Shown here in pieces: positions 3,677-63,658 of a stretch of DNA of 64,000 nucleotides. The translations under genes and the position numbers were made by a program. The notes under the pieces are model-generated. The model saw nothing but the letters and a program-made list of their open reading frames with translations, did not search any database and was not told the DNA's origin. Where the stretch lies: assembly GCA_020328155.1 (NCBI GenBank), contig JAIXMX010000007.1:1-64000 (forward strand), read 5' to 3'. Within the stretch, counting starts at the first letter, position 1; every line of letters begins with the position of its first letter. The stretch comes from Candidatus Endomicrobiellum agilis (GTDB lineage Bacteria; Elusimicrobiota; Endomicrobiia; Endomicrobiales; Endomicrobiaceae).

Positions 3677-4102
3677 ATGAATCCGCAGGAAATCAAAGAA
3701 TTCTTAAAATCAATAAAAGATACAGACATTGAAGAAATACAGTATCAAAGCGGCGAAGATTCTTTATACTTTAAGAAAACCGATGTAAAGGCTATAGTGC
3801 CTGATGCAAAAGAGGATGCCAAGCTTAAAGCTAAAGAAGAAGAAAATAAGAAATTGGCGCTTATTGCCATCAAATCAACAATGGTGGGTACGTTTGCCAG
3901 CGCCCAAAGCAACGACAAACATCCGCTTGTCAGAGAGGGCGATAATGTAACCGTCGGACAAAAAGTCGGACAAATTGAAGCGATGAAAATTATCAAAGAT
4001 GTCCTTTCTAATATTAAAGGCAAAATATCAAAAGTTTTGGTATCAAACGGACAATCCGTCGAATACGGACAGGAATTGTTTATAGTAGATACAAGCAAAT
4101 AA
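3677..4102 (+). CDS. accB: biotin carboxyl carrier protein (copy 1)
   Basis: Carries the biotin that shuttles CO2 in acetyl-CoA carboxylase, the first step of fatty-acid synthesis. It has 141 residues: a short N-terminal helix region, a charged Lys/Glu/Ala linker (about 35-60) and a C-terminal biotinyl domain with the EAMK site (Lys104). GAGGT precedes the ATG. accC follows after 116 bases, so this copy is paired with the biotin carboxylase. A second, different accB lies at about 34 kb. Confidence 0.95.
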   Translation: MNPQEIKEFLKSIKDTDIEEIQYQSGEDSLYFKKTDVKAIVPDAKEDAKLKAKEEENKKLALIAIKSTMVGTFASAQSNDKHPLVREGDNVTVGQKVGQIEAMKIIKDVLSNIKGKISKVLVSNGQSVEYGQELFIVDTSK

Positions 4103-4218
4103 TACAAAGCAATTTAAAAAGTGAAAATTGACGGCAAAAAGATAATAAAGCCTTTACGAAAATTCCATTCCTCTTAAACAGCTCGAGCTATATGTGCAAG
4201 CACACAACAGGAGACAAG

Positions 4219-5568
4219 ATGTTTAAAAAAGTTTTGATTGCAAACAGAGGTGAAATAGCCTGCAGAGTCATAAGAGCCTGCAGAGAATTAGGCATTAAAA
4301 CTATAGCCATTCATTCGGAAGTCGATAGGGAAAGTATGCATGTAAAACTTGCCGATCAATCTATATGCGTAGGACATGCAAGCGCTTCTGAAAGTTATTT
4401 AAATATACCAAGCATTATAGCAGCCGCGGAAATTTCAGGAGCAGATGCAATTCACCCTGGGTACGGTTTTTTAGCTGAAAACACTTACTTCGCTGAAGTT
4501 TGCGAAGCTTGCGGGTTGAAATTTATTGGACCTTCAAAAGAGTCAATAGAACAGATGGGCGATAAAATTGCAGCTATAAAACTTATGAAAAAAGCAGGCA
4601 TTCCAGTAATTCCTGGTTCAGATGGTCCTGTCAACGTCGATGATCCCAAAATTTTTGCCATAGCCCAAAAAATAGGATACCCCGTCATCATCAAAGCAAC
4701 TGCGGGCGGCGGCGGAAAAGGCATGAGAATAGTTACTTCCGAGGAAGTTCTCAAAAATTCTATTTCTATGGCTCAAACAGAAGCCAAAGCTGCTTTCGGA
4801 AATCCTGAAATATATATGGAAAAATATATCGAAGAATCTCATCATATAGAGTTTCAGATACTCGGCGACAAATATGGGAAAACGGCCTATCTTCCCGAAA
4901 GAGACTGTTCCATACAGAGAAGACACCAGAAACTAATTGAAGAAAGTCCGTCGCCGTTAATAAATGACGCACTGAGAAAGAAAATGGGCAGCACCGCAAA
5001 AAATGCGGCGGCGGCCATAAAATATGTCACCGTAGGCACAATAGAGTTTCTCGTAGATAAAAACGGCAATTTTTATTTTATGGAAATGAATACGAGAATC
5101 CAAGTAGAACATCCCGTTACCGAAATGGTTACGGGCATAGATTTGGTAAAAGAACAGATAAAACTTGCTGCTGGCGAAAAACTCTCAATTGTTTCTGAAA
5201 AAATTAAAATACTAGGTCATGCCATAGAATGCAGAATAAATGCGGAAGATCCCGACAAAGACTTTATTCCGTCACCGGGAACAATCGGTAAATTATTTTT
5301 GCCCGGAGGTCCCGGAATAAGACTAGATTCACACGTTTATGCGGGATATACAATACCGCCTTTCTATGACAGTCTCATTGCAAAAGTTATCGCTTTAGGT
5401 GAGGACAGAGACGAAGCTATTACAAGAATGCGCAGAGCTTTAAGAGAAGTTGAAATAGAGGGTATTAAAAATACTTCATCTCTTCACAATAAAATTATGA
5501 CAAATGAAAAGTTTCGCAAAGGCGGCGTCAGCACGAATTTCCTCACCAAATATATTTTTGGAAGATAG
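4219..5568 (+). CDS. accC: biotin carboxylase subunit of acetyl-CoA carboxylase
   Basis: Uses ATP and bicarbonate to carboxylate the biotin on AccB. It has 449 residues, typical length. The protein starts MFKKVLIANRGEIACRV; the ATG at 4219 has AGGAG eight bases upstream, whereas the in-frame ATG at 4192 adds nine non-family residues. ATP-grasp features are visible: glycine loop AGGGGKGM (about 162-169), ERDCSIQRRHQKLIEE, MEMNTRIQVEHPVTE and IECRINAEDP. No missing residues noticed. Confidence 0.97.
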   Translation: MFKKVLIANRGEIACRVIRACRELGIKTIAIHSEVDRESMHVKLADQSICVGHASASESYLNIPSIIAAAEISGADAIHPGYGFLAENTYFAEVCEACGLKFIGPSKESIEQMGDKIAAIKLMKKAGIPVIPGSDGPVNVDDPKIFAIAQKIGYPVIIKATAGGGGKGMRIVTSEEVLKNSISMAQTEAKAAFGNPEIYMEKYIEESHHIEFQILGDKYGKTAYLPERDCSIQRRHQKLIEESPSPLINDALRKKMGSTAKNAAAAIKYVTVGTIEFLVDKNGNFYFMEMNTRIQVEHPVTEMVTGIDLVKEQIKLAAGEKLSIVSEKIKILGHAIECRINAEDPDKDFIPSPGTIGKLFLPGGPGIRLDSHVYAGYTIPPFYDSLIAKVIALGEDRDEAITRMRRALREVEIEGIKNTSSLHNKIMTNEKFRKGGVSTNFLTKYIFGR

Positions 5569-5597
5569 TTTCGTTCTGACTCTTAAAAAAGAGAATA

Positions 5598-6182
5598 GTG
5601 AAAACTAAAGAACTCATTAAAAATATCATCGATGAAAGCGTTAAAACGAAAAGGAAGATGCTTGAAATCGAGCAAATTGAATATATTTACAATGTTGCAG
5701 ATAAAATTGTCGAAACGTACAGGAATAAGAAAAAAACAATTATTTGCGGCAACGGCGGTTCCGCTTCAGATGCTTTGCATTTTGCCGCCGAGATGGTCAA
5801 CAGATTTGAAAAAAACAGAGGAACTCTCGCTTCCATTGCTCTATCTGAAAACATATCAACAATAACCGCTATCGGAAATGATTTCAGCTATGACTGTATT
5901 TTCAGCCGCCAGCTTGAAGCTTTTGCGCAAAAAGGCGATATTTTTATAGCAATATCAACAAGCGGGAAGTCGCCAAACATTATAAAGGCTCTAGAGGTGG
6001 CAAAAAAGTTAAGCATTTTTACAATAGGATTTACAAATTCCGACGGCGGAAAAATGAAAGACATATGTGATTTATGCTATTGCGCTCCATCAAAAATTAC
6101 TGCAAGAACACAGGAATGCCACATACTTTTAATACACATCATTGCAAAAATTGTCGAAGAAAAAATTTTTAATCAGACATAA
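5598..6182 (+). CDS. gmhA: SIS-domain phosphosugar isomerase, GmhA-like
   Basis: Most like sedoheptulose-7-phosphate isomerase, which starts ADP-heptose synthesis for lipopolysaccharide cores. It has 194 residues. The SIS domain shows GNGGSASDALHFAAE (51-65) and the sugar-phosphate Ser/Thr loop ISTSGKSPN (119-127), with a His/Gln-containing C-terminal helix (ARTQECH) fitting the zinc site. The start is GTG at 5598, 29 bases after accC. DiaA, a related SIS protein that acts with DnaA, is the main alternative. It is the last intact gene before the decayed restriction locus. Confidence 0.85.
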   Translation: MKTKELIKNIIDESVKTKRKMLEIEQIEYIYNVADKIVETYRNKKKTIICGNGGSASDALHFAAEMVNRFEKNRGTLASIALSENISTITAIGNDFSYDCIFSRQLEAFAQKGDIFIAISTSGKSPNIIKALEVAKKLSIFTIGFTNSDGGKMKDICDLCYCAPSKITARTQECHILLIHIIAKIVEEKIFNQT

Positions 6183-6324
6183 AACTGAAGTAACTGATTT
6201 TATTCTCAGTATCTTTGTGCAAACCGCAACAATGCAAAGGTATAATCAATTCCATAAAAGATATCAAGGTGAAAATGGGAGTTACAGAAGTCGCCGAGTT
6301 TCAAAAAATGTCCTATTTTATAAA

Positions 6325-6822
6325 TCACCAACGCCCAAATCGTTTGTCTGCAACACCATAAACAAAAACCTTATCGTTAAACTTTTTAGTTTGCGGGATT
6401 TTTTCGAACAATAACTTCATTGCTCTCGGTTTCAACATATTAAATCTAATCTCTCTATAATGTACAGGACTATCATTCCTCATTTCAATTTCTCCTACAT
6501 TTAAGCCGTTATAACGAAGCAATACTTTTTGTTCAGGGAATTGCTTTTTGGCAATGATTCTAGAATTGACAACCTTAAAAAACTTACTCATAACTTCCAG
6601 CACATCACTACTGGCAAAAATATGAAAAACGCCGTCGTGTTTTATTGTCAATAGTTGACTTCTCCGCCGTTAAAAATTGATTTGTTTAGAAACGCTTTCA
6701 ACCTTATTGGCATTTGCATTTTCTCCGCTAATGCTCTCATAGGTATCCGTACTTCATACTTAGTTTTATCTTTTTCGTAATCATCAAAACTATTAAGGAA
6801 AGCATTTGTACAATCTGATATA
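6325..6822 (-). pseudogene. broken gene fragment, likely C-terminal part of a type II restriction enzyme
   Basis: Two minus-strand frames join into one product. 6822-6655 reads ...NAFLNSFDDYEKDKTKYE... and 6651-6325 continues in another frame (LTIKHDGVFHIFASS..., then LLRYNGLNVGEIEMRNDS and VHYREIRFN). A frameshift separates them near 6652 and no proper start is present. I do not recognise the family firmly. The restriction-enzyme call rests on the adjacent methyltransferase pieces and on how the frames join when the 6.83-7.9 kb segment is flipped. Residues GEIEMRNDSPVHYREIRF could be part of a nuclease core. Non-functional as it stands. Confidence 0.5.
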
Positions 6823-6830
6823 TTGGTATA
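6818..6830. repeat. inverted-repeat partner of the 7901-7928 array (inversion junction)
   Basis: ATATATTGGTATA here is the reverse complement of TATACCAATATA units in the array at 7901-7928. The two sites bound the segment whose coding strand is opposite to its flanks. Confidence 0.6.
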
Positions 6831-6833
6831 ATA

Positions 6834-7612
6834 GTATCGTTATTGCTAGGTGGTATAGAGAAGTTAGTGTCGCCGTTTTTCGGCGGTGGTTCTGTAGAAA
6901 TTGCGTGTGCAAAAGAATTAAATATATCTGTCTTAGGCTATGGTATTTTTGATTTATTAGTTAATTTTTGGAATGTGCAATCAATAACCTAAAAGAACTT
7001 GCGAATCGTTTAAAAAAGTTTGAACGAACAAAAGAAGAAAATATAAGCGAGTAAAAAATATAATCTGGGATAGAAAGAAGATAATAACATATAGGTGTGA
7101 TTTGGCAGCAATATACTATCTTTAACTACAATACGTCATACTGTCCTCATTTTTTAGGTTTGCCGTCAGGTGTTTATCTACAAAAAGAAAGATATGAAAA
7201 AATGGTAGAAAAAGCAGAGGATTTTGATGTAAAAAATATAGAAGTCAAATGTAACTCTTTTGAATATACTACAGAGCAACATAAGAATGATTTTTTATAT
7301 TTAGACCCACTATATTACTTAGAAGATGACAGTAGAACATTTATTGACATGTATCAGCATCGTAATTTCTCTATACATCACAATGGCTTTAAGCATAAGT
7401 TGTCGAGTGAATTACTAAGGCAGCATGAAGGTGGTTTTATTTTATCATACAATGATTGTACTGTGCTGCTAGAGAAATGTACAAAGGATTTAAAATGCTG
7501 ACGCCGCCTTGGAAATATACATTTAGTCAGGGTGATACAAGAATAGGTGAAAATAGATTGAAAGATAATAATGGCAGTTATATAAAAAGTTACACGAGTT
7601 GATAATCTGCAA
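6834..7612 (+). pseudogene. D12-class adenine DNA methyltransferase, core and C-terminus, broken
   Basis: Reads in several + frames as one methyltransferase lacking its N-terminus. 6851-6978 gives LVSPFFGGGSVEIACAKEL (SAM-binding FxGxG, motif I) and GYGIFDLLVNFW. A frameshift near 6975 leads to NNLKELANRLKKFERTKEE, then a stop. 7097-7501 gives HKNDFLYLDPLYYLEDDS, where the catalytic DPPY has become DPLY, and GGFILSYNDC. After another shift, YTFSQGDTRIGENRLKDN completes the C-terminus. The matching N-terminus lies on the opposite strand at 7905-8112. Catalytic motif change, frameshifts and the split all mark it as dead. Confidence 0.8.
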
Positions 7613-7900
7613 TGTTGGGAGATAAGTTGTGTCGGTATCTGTTTGGAAAAAAGAGGACTAGATTCAGAGAGAGCAAGAGCTGTGCGGAAATAATGACACG
7701 ATGAATGCTTTGGAATTTGTGGCAATATGTTTAAATAGTGATTACAGAAATGATTTAAAAGCCCAAAAAAGATGTTATTGACAATTTGTGAGTCTCGCAT
7801 TTGGTAAAAAGTGACAACAAGAAATGGCAAATTTTCTTATATGGACTTACAAGATTTGAAAATGATGAATCTTTTGCTGTTATGAATGGAAGCTTTATTA
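7613..7900 (+). pseudogene. probable N-terminal fragment of the partner restriction enzyme, broken
   Basis: Follows the methyltransferase tail on the same strand and keeps coding-like reading in patches: NNDTMNALEFVAICLNSDYR (about 7684-7745) and, in another frame, KKWQIFLYGLTRFENDES then AVMNGSFITN (about 7812-7900). At least one stop and one frameshift interrupt it. Flipping the 6.83-7.9 kb segment would place it directly before the minus-strand fragment at 6325-6822 in the same direction. The two fragments are therefore probably one former gene. The family is not recognised. Confidence 0.45.
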
Positions 7901-7928
7901 CCAATATACCAATATACCAATATACCAA
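7901..7928. repeat. 8-bp tandem repeat CCAATATA, about 3.5 copies
   Basis: Three full units of CCAATATA plus CCAA. It marks the second junction of the apparent inversion. To its left the coding is on +, and to its right the methyltransferase N-terminus is on minus. Confidence 0.8.
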
Positions 7929-8112
7929 CCGCTAAACTTTTACCACCGGCATACCTCAATGTAGAATTCACACATCTTTTATATTGCGCCTTTCCCGACG
8001 AACTTTTATATTTATCTAAAAACTCTGCCCTTTTACTCTCAAAGCTTCCATTAAAACGGAATTTTGTTTGAGCAGCATTTCCATTTATCACTATATTATT
8101 TAAACAAGTCAT
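7905..8112 (-). pseudogene. D12-class adenine DNA methyltransferase, N-terminal fragment
   Basis: Begins at an ATG (8112) with a good TAGGAGAG ribosome site and reads MTCLNNIVINGNAAQTKFRF..., then STLRYAGGKSLAVG. The AGGK motif is the conserved N-terminal (motif X) element of Dam/D12 methyltransferases. After that the frame enters the tandem repeat and then reads antisense of another fragment down to 7837. Homologues continue from this motif straight to the PFFGGG motif, which is found on the other strand at 6851. The real start and ribosome site show the gene was once expressed from here. Confidence 0.78.
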
Positions 8113-8364
8113 TTTTACTCTCCTATAAGAACACAGATTGCTTTACAAATTATCAAAAATTTCATTTCAAGAACTATTTACTATATACATAATAATAAAT
8201 GGAAAATAATTTTTCTAAATAACGAGTTTTTCAGTTCTTCTCTTAAATTTCAGCTAACGTATTTTGCCTACTGCCGCACCATCCAAGGTTCAATTGCAAA
8301 TTAAAAACAAAAGTAAATTTTAATGAATATTTTTTCCTTTTCCAGAGAACGTTCGTCTAAAGCT

Positions 8365-9732
8365 TCAATTTCTTAAAAATTTGACCGTCGTTCCCAGCGT
8401 TTCCGCTCCAAGCACATCGATTTTACCTCTATATGACAAATTTTTTAAATTACCTTTCGGTATTATTGCTTTCTTAAAACCAAGTTTTTCCGCTTCGTAA
8501 AGCCTTTCCGCAACAAGCGATACAGAACGAACTTCACCGGCGAGACCAACTTCGCCAAAAACTATCATATCTTTAGGACAGATAAAACTAGAGTTTGCAG
8601 ACACTATGGCACAAGCGGCAGCCAAATCTGCAGATGTCTCTTTAATCTTTACACCGCCTGCTATATTTACAAAAACATCCTGCATTCCAAGAGGTAGATT
8701 TAATCTTTTTTCTAAAACCGCTATAAGAATTATAATGCGGTTCGCATCATATCCGGAAACCATTCTGCGCGGCATGCCAAAAGCAGTTCTTGCAGTCAAA
8801 GCTTGTACTTCCAAAAGAAGAGGTCTCGTTCCCTCCATCGCTACGGTTACGACATTTCCCGCAGTATCCGTCGTACGCTCTCCCAAAAAAATAAGCGACG
8901 GATTTGAAACTTCGGAAAGTCCCGAAGAGTTCATCTCAAAAATCCCGATTTCGCTTGTAGGTCCAAATCTGTTTTTATACGCTCTTAAAATTCTATATGT
9001 GTGTTGGCGTTCATTCTCAAAATACAATACCGTGTCAACAATATGCTCTAAAACCCTTGGGCCTGCCAAATCCCCTTCTTTTGTAACGTGTCCTAAAAGA
9101 AACACGGCAATATTTTTTGACTTCGCGATTCTTAAAAGCTCCGCCGCAGTTTCTTTAACCTGCCCCACTGTACCCGGAGCGCCTGAAAGTTCGGGATGAT
9201 AAGTTGTCTGAATTGAATCTATAATCAGAAATTCAGGATTTATTTTATTTACGGCGTCTATAATATTTTGAAGATTTGTTTCAGAAGCTAAAAAGATATT
9301 ATCTTTTTTTACTTTAAGACGCTCGGCGCGCGATTTGACTTGTGAAAGAGATTCCTCGCCTGATATATAAAGGACGGTGGCTTCATTGCTTAAAGAGTCT
9401 GATATATGCAACATCAGCGTAGATTTTCCAATTCCCGGCGCTCCTCCTAAAAGTATTAAAGATCCAGGTACAATCCCTCCGCCTATCATATTGTCAAATT
9501 CTTTTATCGCAGTGCGGTATCTCGAAAAATCTTTAGTTGAAATATCTTTTAATTTTAAAACTTCAGAGGAAAATCCGGTAAGTTGTTTTGAAAGAGAGCT
9601 TGCTTTGACAGATGATGAAAACTTTTCTTCCGTAAAACTGCTCCATGCTCCACAAGAAGGACATCTGCCAAGCCATTGGACAGACTCATAACCGCATTGT
9701 TGACATAAAAACCTCGTTTTTTGTCTTTTCAT
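8365..9732 (-). CDS. radA: DNA repair protein RadA/Sms
   Basis: A RecA-related helicase that helps branch migration and recombination intermediates. It has 455 residues. In order: zinc finger with Cys10, Cys13, Cys24, Cys27; Walker A GGAPGIGKST (96-105); the RadA-specific KNRFG motif (about 255); and a C-terminal Lon-protease-like domain without its catalytic role. It has no close operon partner; the gap to mlaD is 123 bases. Complete and typical. Confidence 0.97.
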   Translation of the reverse strand: MKRQKTRFLCQQCGYESVQWLGRCPSCGAWSSFTEEKFSSSVKASSLSKQLTGFSSEVLKLKDISTKDFSRYRTAIKEFDNMIGGGIVPGSLILLGGAPGIGKSTLMLHISDSLSNEATVLYISGEESLSQVKSRAERLKVKKDNIFLASETNLQNIIDAVNKINPEFLIIDSIQTTYHPELSGAPGTVGQVKETAAELLRIAKSKNIAVFLLGHVTKEGDLAGPRVLEHIVDTVLYFENERQHTYRILRAYKNRFGPTSEIGIFEMNSSGLSEVSNPSLIFLGERTTDTAGNVVTVAMEGTRPLLLEVQALTARTAFGMPRRMVSGYDANRIIILIAVLEKRLNLPLGMQDVFVNIAGGVKIKETSADLAAACAIVSANSSFICPKDMIVFGEVGLAGEVRSVSLVAERLYEAEKLGFKKAIIPKGNLKNLSYRGKIDVLGAETLGTTVKFLRN

Positions 9733-9855
9733 TTAAATCCCAACCACAATAAATTCTTCGGGAACACTTCTTTGAGAAAAAACGGAACAAAATACGTTCG
9801 CTATTACTAAGCGACTGCGACAATGGTCACGATTTCAAAGCAGCATTGCCAACCT

Positions 9856-11130
9856 TTATTGCTTGAATTCAATCTTTATGTAAGGTCTAACCGCAGTTTT
9901 ATTCAAGATATCTTCAATCGCAACCCCGGTATAGAGCCATTTTGTTATTCCAAACCTCATGCCTGCACCAATTTCCGGACCGTATTCATTTCTACGAAAA
10001 TTAGATACGTCCAAGTAAACTTTCAGCATTGTATAATTAGCATATATAGGCTGGAAAAACGAATATCCTAAACCTATTCCCAATTTGTTTTTTATTGCGC
10101 CGCCGTAAATTTCAGCTTTTTTTGACCTAAATCCCAAAAGAGCATTCAGAGTATTTATATTTCCATTTTCATTCTTATCCGCTAAGCAACTGTCAACAAT
10201 GTTTGCAATTCCCAAATAATAAAATTTATCGTCGCTCGACGACATTTTTAAACCAATATCGTTTACGTATTTTCTATTTTTAATATCATATTTTCCAGTA
10301 TAGTCCCAGCTCAACTCCAATCTGCCAACTTTTCTGATTGTATTATTTAGACTTTCAACGGTTTCTTTTGCAGAGGCTACTGTCTCTTTCAAATTTTTAC
10401 TCATCTGTTCATCATTTATAAGAGTCGATATCGGTCCGTTTCCGTCATATACGCGGGCAACCAATACATCTACCTTTGCGGAAATGTCTTTGACTGACGA
10501 TATTGCATCCCTTAAATCTTGCTTATTCTGCGCTGAAATATCTGCAATATCAATTGAAAATTTATTAAAGTTGTTTATTGATGACATAATCTGATTGTTT
10601 TGCGCTGCTAGATTATTTAAAACTTCCTTAAGAGAATACAGAGCATCGGCAAGATTTTCTACTATATCTTTTAGATTTCCCTCTTTCTCACTGTTGTATA
10701 ACGCTTTATTGATTCTATCAGTGATATCAGTTAAAGTGCTTTCAATAGAGGACTTTCGCTCCGATAATATATAATCGCCTTCTTTCAACTCCGGAAAACT
10801 TGAATCGCCCGGAACAATTTCAATGTATTTTGTTCCTACAATCCCTACGGACACCATACGAGCAAAAGCATTCTTGTATAAAACAACGTCTTTTCTTATC
10901 GAAAGCTTTAATTTTGCTTTCGAATCATCTAAAGAAACATTCCTCAAAACACCTATATCAACACCAGCTATTTTAACTTTAGCTTTCCGCGTAAGACCGG
11001 AAATACTGTCAAACTTTACATAGATATTGTAAGTTTTTTTCAATGTAAACGACCCGGTTGAAATAATTGAAACAACTATTGCAAGAAATCCTGCTGCCGT
11101 AAAGAGTCCGAGTTTAAGCTGATTGTTCAT
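9856..11130 (-). CDS. mlaD: MCE-domain lipid transport protein (MlaD-like) with long C-terminal extension
   Basis: Periplasmic substrate-binding part of an Mla-type ABC system that moves phospholipids between the membranes. It has 424 residues: one N-terminal membrane anchor (about 9-27), an MCE domain (about 34-115, VKFDSISGLTRKAKVKIAGV), a predicted helical stretch (about 120-260), then about 160 residues rich in beta-type sequence (IYGGAIKNKLGIGLGYSFF) ending in a lysine/phenylalanine tail. E. coli MlaD is only 183 residues. The extension may be a membrane or barrel-like tail; inference. The start overlaps the mlaF stop by four bases. Confidence 0.85.
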   Translation of the reverse strand: MNNQLKLGLFTAAGFLAIVVSIISTGSFTLKKTYNIYVKFDSISGLTRKAKVKIAGVDIGVLRNVSLDDSKAKLKLSIRKDVVLYKNAFARMVSVGIVGTKYIEIVPGDSSFPELKEGDYILSERKSSIESTLTDITDRINKALYNSEKEGNLKDIVENLADALYSLKEVLNNLAAQNNQIMSSINNFNKFSIDIADISAQNKQDLRDAISSVKDISAKVDVLVARVYDGNGPISTLINDEQMSKNLKETVASAKETVESLNNTIRKVGRLELSWDYTGKYDIKNRKYVNDIGLKMSSSDDKFYYLGIANIVDSCLADKNENGNINTLNALLGFRSKKAEIYGGAIKNKLGIGLGYSFFQPIYANYTMLKVYLDVSNFRRNEYGPEIGAGMRFGITKWLYTGVAIEDILNKTAVRPYIKIEFKQ

Positions 11131-41219: not shown

Positions 41220-43214
41220 TCAGTCTTTCCTAATTATCTGTATTATCCGTTTTATTTTGTCAAAGATTAAATTGAAATTTGAAAAATCAAAGTCTTCTAT
41301 AAATTCGGCATTATTTGTCACAAGACTGGCAAATTCTCCTTTTGATAATGCAATCGAATCAGCATGCTTTAAATCCTTGTTTTTGTAAACCTTTTCATCC
41401 ATTACCCCATTTTTTTCAATTTTATTTTTCAACGAGGCGGTATTTGTCTGAAATTTCCCGTTTTTACTATTCCCTGACTCATAAAATTCATCTCCAAGAA
41501 ATAATCTTCTGCCGTTTTCATCTTCTTTGCATAGATCTTCTTTGCGAAAGTAGTGTTCTATGCTGATTGAATCTCCATAACACTGATCTGCAAACGGAAT
41601 ACAAAAAGCATACACCTCATCTGAATATTTTTTGTATTCATTATCATCTTTTTCAATATCTTTGACAATTTCATCATTATCTCTGTCAAAAATTCCTATT
41701 ATTTTTCTCCCTGGTTTAATTTTTGAAACATACTTCAACAACTTTCTTAATTCAACATCTCCGCCACTGTCTTTGCTGTCTTTGCTGTCTTTGCGTTCAG
41801 AAAAATCAATATCACAATCTTCAATCCCCAATACTTCCTTCGCTTTCTTTAGATACATCACATCAGTTTTACCTTCAGTGAGTATAAGAGGCTTGTTGGC
41901 AGAATTTATTTCATTTTTCAAAGAATCATATTCTTCTTTAAATCTCTCATTTTCACTGATCATCATTTTATACACTTCGTTATAAAGTTCGCTAGCTGAC
42001 GGATTGTTGGAAATCCCAAAATTATCAAGATCAACTATTTTAGTTCGTTCTTTAACTACTTCCGCCAAACCCATATTTAAAAATGGAGAATGAGAACTCA
42101 AAATAAACTGCACATTGGGAAAAAGCTTAAACAATTCAGGCAAGACTTCTTTTTGAAGTTTAATATGCAAATGTTTATCAACTTCGTCGATCAATACAAT
42201 TCCCGTAATATCGCTTAACGGCATATTATTTTTGTTATTATCCGCTTGTCTAAGAATTTCTCCGAACAAACAAAACATTGCGGCTTCGCCGGAAGAAAGA
42301 TCGAAAATTGTCGGATAAACAACATTATTTATTTTTTTATTTGGGTCTTCATTTAGTTTTTTAATACCAATACGAGCGCCTTTTAAATTTCTTTGACCTA
42401 CGTTAAATTCAACTTTTCCAAACCCTTTAGAGACAAGTGCCCGCGTAATTATTTTATTTATTTCGCCGAGTAAATTGTTTTCGCTAGGATTTTTATCATT
42501 TTTACCATAACCCTGCTGACGACTATCTAAGACAACATCCATAATCCAATTAGCAAGCTGCGGCAAACCCGTTATAACTTCAATCGGATTATTTAAATCC
42601 GAAGAAAATACCCTCTCTTTTTCAAAACTCAAGTTGATTTTATAAGTATCGTTGAGATAGCCCGGAGTTTCATATCTATAAGAAGGAAAATAAGTAACAA
42701 TATTATTTCTGAATATTTTTTCAGCTTTATTTTCATCAAAATTAGGCCAAATATATTTTGTACAGCTATATTGCTTTAATTGTCTTTTAATTGCGTCAAG
42801 AGGTATTTTATCTTTTAACTGTATAGCTTCATCATATTGACCCTGATTATAGTTTTTCACCATACCCCGAATGTCGACAATATCAATATAATCAATGCAG
42901 CCTTCAGGAGTTTGAAATCTTATATACACAAAAGACGGTTGATTTGCGCTCATGTTATAAACATTTGAAGCTACTCGATAATATTTTTTATCTTTAACTT
43001 CGCTCCCAAAATGCTTTTTTGCCATTTCATACCAAGCGTCAACAATATATGACAGCAGCGTTGTTTTACCTCTTCCGTTTGCAGCAGATAAAACAATAAT
43101 TTCATTTTCATTGAAATCTAAGTTCAAGGTATCAGTTTCATTTTCATTGAAAGGATTCGAGCTACCGAAAGGCGCTCTATTTTTAATAATGATTTTTTCC
43201 ACGTACATTTTCAT
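41220..43214 (-). CDS. OLD-family ATPase/TOPRIM protein, candidate phage defence
   Basis: It has 664 residues: an N-terminal ABC-type ATPase with Walker A SAANGRGKTT (43-52), signature-like LSSGEAAMFC (near 305) and Walker B GIVLIDEVDKHLHI (near 350) with SSHSPF after it, then a TOPRIM domain from about 440 with EGKTD (near 447) and FDRDNDE (near 509), the acidic metal ligands of OLD nucleases. OLD proteins cut DNA and several act against phages. A 9-base repeat encodes KDSKDSKDS before the TOPRIM acidic motif. No UvrD-like GajB partner is beside it. It sits between carA and carB in the same direction. Confidence 0.85.
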   Translation of the reverse strand: MKMYVEKIIIKNRAPFGSSNPFNENETDTLNLDFNENEIIVLSAANGRGKTTLLSYIVDAWYEMAKKHFGSEVKDKKYYRVASNVYNMSANQPSFVYIRFQTPEGCIDYIDIVDIRGMVKNYNQGQYDEAIQLKDKIPLDAIKRQLKQYSCTKYIWPNFDENKAEKIFRNNIVTYFPSYRYETPGYLNDTYKINLSFEKERVFSSDLNNPIEVITGLPQLANWIMDVVLDSRQQGYGKNDKNPSENNLLGEINKIITRALVSKGFGKVEFNVGQRNLKGARIGIKKLNEDPNKKINNVVYPTIFDLSSGEAAMFCLFGEILRQADNNKNNMPLSDITGIVLIDEVDKHLHIKLQKEVLPELFKLFPNVQFILSSHSPFLNMGLAEVVKERTKIVDLDNFGISNNPSASELYNEVYKMMISENERFKEEYDSLKNEINSANKPLILTEGKTDVMYLKKAKEVLGIEDCDIDFSERKDSKDSKDSGGDVELRKLLKYVSKIKPGRKIIGIFDRDNDEIVKDIEKDDNEYKKYSDEVYAFCIPFADQCYGDSISIEHYFRKEDLCKEDENGRRLFLGDEFYESGNSKNGKFQTNTASLKNKIEKNGVMDEKVYKNKDLKHADSIALSKGEFASLVTNNAEFIEDFDFSNFNLIFDKIKRIIQIIRKD

Positions 43215-63031: not shown

Positions 63032-63658
<627 letters not shown>

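Follow-up and report, generated by a model that had tools for sequence, protein, structure and literature searches.

How does a restriction-modification (R-M) operon come to lie in four pieces on both strands? The 64,000-nucleotide stretch of the Candidatus Endomicrobiellum agilis genome analysed here (hereafter the window) raises this question, as reading its open reading frames on both strands reveals four pieces of a D12 adenine methyltransferase gene (M) and its partner gene (R), presumed to encode an endonuclease. The initial annotation had proposed that a single inversion scrambled one operon, and its positions for all four pieces held once both strands were read and the segment was flipped in silico (Table 1).

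Table 1. Features of the R-M locus and its neighbours, in window coordinates.
Feature	Position	Strand	Remarks
gmhA-like SIS-domain isomerase, upstream neighbour	5598..6182	+	Intact; named by reading its sequence
R C-terminal part (fragment 2)	6328..6822	-	GEIEMRND...HYREIRFNM; outside inverted segment; matches L016 and intact R relatives
R C-terminal part, lesion	near 6650	-	Frameshift (frameshift-aware alignment)
Left breakpoint	6816..6830	+	R sequence joined to the remaining octamer unit of M (ATATTGGTATA)
Inverted segment	6823..7900	+	blastn against the uninverted orthologous locus L058 3804-2793
M remainder (core and C-terminus)	6831..7603	+	PF02086 matches 7154-7462 and 6852-7076; motif I PFFGGG; DPLY at 7304-7315 (DPPY in relatives)
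M remainder, frameshifts	near 6830-6848, 6981-6987, 7037, 7117-7120, 7463-7466, 7591	+	Frameshift-aware alignment
M remainder, deletion	near 7060	+	9 bases lost (frameshift-aware alignment)
R N-terminal part (fragment 1)	7640..7900	+	Matches L016 and intact R relatives
R N-terminal part, lesions	7691, 7694, 7789; near 7703, 7755	+	Stops at the first three positions; frameshifts near the last two
Octamer array TTGGTATA	7899..7928	-	3.75 units; right breakpoint
M N-terminal piece	7929..8112	-	ORF, ATG at 8112; LRYAGGKSLAVG motif, LRYAGGK; outside inverted segment; matches L016 1432-1539, direct match to L058
radA, downstream neighbour	8365..9732	-	Intact; named by reading its sequence

One operon, rearranged by one inversion

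The relatives with which the locus was compared are draft or metagenome assemblies. At two loci from the same genus, L016 and L036 (the latter from G031, Endomicrobium sp. Md513_bin60), all four pieces match a single strand, running from the M N-terminus through the M core to fragment 1 and then fragment 2, and in L016 the match to the M N-terminal piece runs straight into the core. This is the order that the initial annotation had predicted for one underlying R-M operon. Both methyltransferase parts match one family, so that a single D12 gene spans the junction, and the two fragments of then unassigned function join into one partner gene. Neither of the two observations that would have spoken against the proposal was made: the methyltransferase parts do not belong to different families, and in intact relatives the two genes share a strand, M before R, unlike in the window.

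Another same-genus relative, L058 (G020, Endomicrobium sp. Hs463_bin80), has an unflipped copy of the operon at this chromosomal site, with the same neighbours as in the window (accC-gmhA-(R-M operon)-radA) and with both genes encoded on one strand, M before R. By blastn, the window matches L058 directly at 4021-6816, 7921-8182 and 8345-10000 and in inverted orientation at 6823-6917 and 6991-7900, with 84-88% identity throughout and about 87% for the inverted 6823-7900. Flipping 6823-7900 back restores a colinear M then R, with 88% identity to L058 over 1969 columns that run across both junctions. The inversion of the M end and the R start in this genome is thus real, and the identity of the operon is established. 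Moreover, the flipped state is the derived one, because 72 of 78 loci across many phyla have M immediately upstream of R in the same orientation, with a median overlap of 4 bases between the two genes.

The methyltransferase

The M core of the window scores 35.5-39.4 bits against PF02086, above the curated cut-off of 22 for a D12 N6-adenine methyltransferase, and an intact relative reaches 117.6 bits. PADLOC also recognises an intact relative as a type II methyltransferase (PDLC03281, E 1e-110), and the closest solved relatives of M are of the DpnM/Dam types. Intact motifs I (FxGxG) and IV (DPPY) in one frame are no longer present in the window, where motif I reads PFFGGG, motif IV reads DPLY and the frame is broken about six times in addition to the inversion. 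The window M is a D12 family pseudogene.

Type II R-M operons with a D12 (Dam/DpnM-like, alpha-order) N6-adenine methyltransferase share with this locus the PF02086 domain, the order of FxGxG before DPPY, and M followed directly by one partner gene on the same strand; this side-by-side arrangement is seen in the window once the order is restored. The window locus differs from them in that R falls outside the families and folds searched and in that neither gene is alive or in its original arrangement. A PF02086 scan of this genome gave partial matches only and thus detected no intact D12 methyltransferase. Another D12 methyltransferase fragment, consisting of the C-terminal half only, lies elsewhere in the genome (contig C6:30259-30525).

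The breakpoints and the octamer array

The two ends of the inverted segment share a 22-nt inverted repeat (6816-6837 and 7906-7927, 86% identity), which by itself barely exceeds chance pairs in the same repeat list and is meaningful because it is located exactly on the breakpoints. The octamer array at the right breakpoint has no other copy in this genome in a 14-mer search. Rejoined in phase with the unit at 6823-6830, it forms (TTGGTATA)5 in M, cut in the fourth unit. In L058, M has one TTGGTATA unit at the breakpoint and R has none, and the octamer is absent from the L036 sequences, including the R-side site. One unit keeps the M frame (21 nt, AVGIIVSLLL versus AVGYIAELLP of relatives), while five units shift it. 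Because of the octamer, the ends of the inverted segment are uncertain by about 8 bases on the left and 20 on the right.

The inverted repeats at the breakpoints therefore look like a product of the break, namely the two halves of a split M array, and the array had probably already expanded in M before the break. It could alternatively have grown after the inversion, or have been copied to both ends by fill-in of a staggered break with later growth at one end. The locus calls for caution, as inverted repeats at breakpoints can be the scar of a break and not its cause. Two other arrays, both perfect, were seen in the window, a hexamer array (ATATAC, 6.8 units) at 63601-63641 and a 9-base array (CTGTCTTTG, 3.1 units) at 41767-41794, inside the ORF at 41220-43214.

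Decay of both genes

Both M and R are dead in the window. Frameshift-aware alignment counts about 6-7 lesions in M and 7 in R, junction included, and in L058 it finds one frameshift each in M and R plus a 75-base in-frame deletion in M; no lesion is common to the two loci. Between the window and L058, the main blocks of M and R give a dN/dS of about 0.16-0.18 (dS 0.37-0.40) and a short M block gives 0.26; dS is 0.32-0.40 across the M/R blocks, R block 1 being left out of the dS figures. The flanking genes give dN/dS of 0.07-0.14 and dS of 0.48-0.57. The dN/dS ratio averages over the whole branch and so cannot date the decay exactly; its low value in M and R nevertheless indicates that selection acted on both genes during most of the period since the two genomes split, and therefore that both lineages lost them separately and recently. 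Thus, our data indicate that the decay of M and R is recent.

The same site in a further genome, G041, retains only the C-terminus of R. The gmhA gene beside this remnant (L059 2930-3460) looks degraded, with 55.8% identity over a shorter span, and the decay in that genome may be spreading to gmhA.

Across the 78 loci surveyed, R is broken while M is whole in six (L088, L093, L120, L129, L133 and L135), with R lesions confirmed in L088, L093, L120 and L129, and also in L101; away from contig ends, none has a broken M with a whole R. Loss of R first is thus the commoner route of decay, and the operon may have been inactivated by something other than the inversion.

Alternative explanations

The initial annotation had gone further: in its version, M and R had carried the inverted repeats beforehand, recombination between these repeats made the flip, and both genes were inactivated in this single event, so that no orphan endonuclease was left to cleave the cell's own DNA. 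The breakpoints do lie inside M and R, with inverted octamer copies at both ends. However, L058 and L036 lack the octamer at the R-side site, and the M of L058 has a single unit, which argues against the repeats as the substrate of the flip. In addition, each window gene carries several independent lesions, the sister L058 has lost M and R with no inversion involved, and elsewhere R generally goes first (six loci versus none), so that avoidance of self-cleavage is unnecessary as an explanation. We consider this scenario unlikely. It could also be speculated that the segment is a programmed switch which flips between its repeats and so activates or silences the system, in the manner of phase-variable R-M loci, since inverted repeats flank the segment and 8-base repeats within the gene for a methyltransferase are reminiscent of contingency tracts. 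A phase-variable locus should have at least one functional orientation, however, whereas here the flip breaks both genes and, given the further stops and frameshifts, neither orientation is functional now; moreover, the array is found only in the window locus, and R in relatives is without the repeat. Such a switch is hardly credible.

An assembly misjoin at a short tandem repeat would likewise create an apparent inversion, and one junction indeed falls within a 30-base repeat while the relatives are unflipped. Yet the repeat is shared over only about 11 bases at one end, which is not enough to force a misjoin, both junctions are clean and reciprocal, and the genome (1.29 Mb in 23 contigs) is reported to be 99.9% complete with no contamination, which makes an artefact very unlikely.

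We are instead confident that this is a horizontally acquired type II R-M operon that was under selection and then decayed separately in each lineage, with an inversion in this genome. In this scenario, an ancestor of this Endomicrobium lineage acquired the two-gene operon, M then R, between gmhA and radA, and purifying selection kept it for most of the time since the split from Hs463_bin80, until it decayed in each lineage. In the present genome, the octamer TTGGTATA, about 55-60 codons into M, would have grown from one unit to several. An inversion of about 1.08 kb, probably sealed through 2-3 bases of microhomology (TA/ATA), then connected the broken array with R near its codon 88 and flipped the M end and the R start. 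With further frameshifts and stops present, both genes are dead; the order of these lesions relative to the inversion is our reconstruction. The inversion is one step in ordinary gene decay and not a new mechanism.

Insertion site and origin

In L176 and L179, which lack the operon, gmhA and radA are 16 and 43 bases apart. Because the two genes adjoin in genomes without the operon, this comparison places its insertion site between the convergent gmhA and radA. No direct or inverted repeats of at least 9 bases were found at the outer edges of the operon, and a radA tree did not resolve which genome is the closest sister of the present one. In L036 (5779-7522), a related R-M operon occupies another chromosomal site, flanked by pgk-side and engA-like genes; its M is intact, and its R carries a frameshift and a stop that break it.

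E. trichonymphae harbours abundant R-M systems, which have been implicated in genome rearrangement; in the family overall such systems are rare and randomly distributed (PMC11257099). Insertion of the operon at one site fits this published view of abundant R-M systems and rearrangement (PMC11257099). Decay of R-M systems in Endomicrobium is itself already published, for 'Ca. Endomicrobium trichonymphae' (Izawa et al. 2016; Zheng et al. 2016, as cited in PMC8809381 and PMC11257099). As those systems are described in the citing papers, the window locus resembles them in belonging to the same genus and in being inserted, rearranged and decayed, and it adds an inversion within the operon documented at base level.

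The locus therefore offers a base-resolved, polarised case of the death of an R-M operon in a reduced-genome symbiont. It suggests a sequence of acquisition at one intergenic site, a period of selection and then separate decay in three related lineages, by inversion with point lesions, by point lesions only, and by deletion to a remnant. The fate itself is ordinary for an R-M operon; what is unusual is how well it is documented, and the unnamed R family emerged as an interesting by-product.

The partner gene

This uncharacterised family is the freshest part of our results. In intact relatives R is about 255 aa long, with the conserved motifs DV(I)D...HSxKSG...WQxFLY and ExExR. Sequence searches gave no credible match to R in Pfam, NCBIfam, PADLOC, PHROGs or PDB, and no recognised nuclease motif, family or fold appeared in the databases searched. 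The predicted structure is confident (pLDDT 91.7); it has no fold neighbour in PDB (best E 0.35), and in BFVD it matches uncharacterised phage proteins only (best E 1e-6). Phage and plasmid records contained no R. A RecB/Cas4-like reading of HSxK...QxxxY was abandoned, as the model puts Q and Y on a strand and not on a helix.

We call R an endonuclease because it is regularly paired with M, and from this operon context it is presumably the endonuclease partner of M. It is tempting to speculate, although we think it rather unlikely, that R represents a new restriction-enzyme family with a fold absent from solved structures, one that accompanies D12 methyltransferases across many bacterial phyla and in some archaea and damages unmethylated DNA through a site outside the known nuclease classes. 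If so, R would cut or otherwise damage unmethylated DNA. Being widespread and as yet unnamed, this companion of D12 methyltransferases makes a good candidate for a new family of restriction enzymes.

Several variants of the pair were noted in other genomes. Two intact tandem R genes follow a single M in L081 (2095-3660) and also in L054, a duplication of R within the operon, and in a Nomurabacteria genome M and R appear as one open frame of 452 aa, a possible M-R fusion (L130 4122-5480). The fold of R resembles uncharacterised cyanophage proteins (BFVD). Distant R relatives with about 27% identity and lengths of 292-295 aa occur without this M nearby at L131, L132, L134 and L136, in Pelagibacter-type and Verrucomicrobia genomes.
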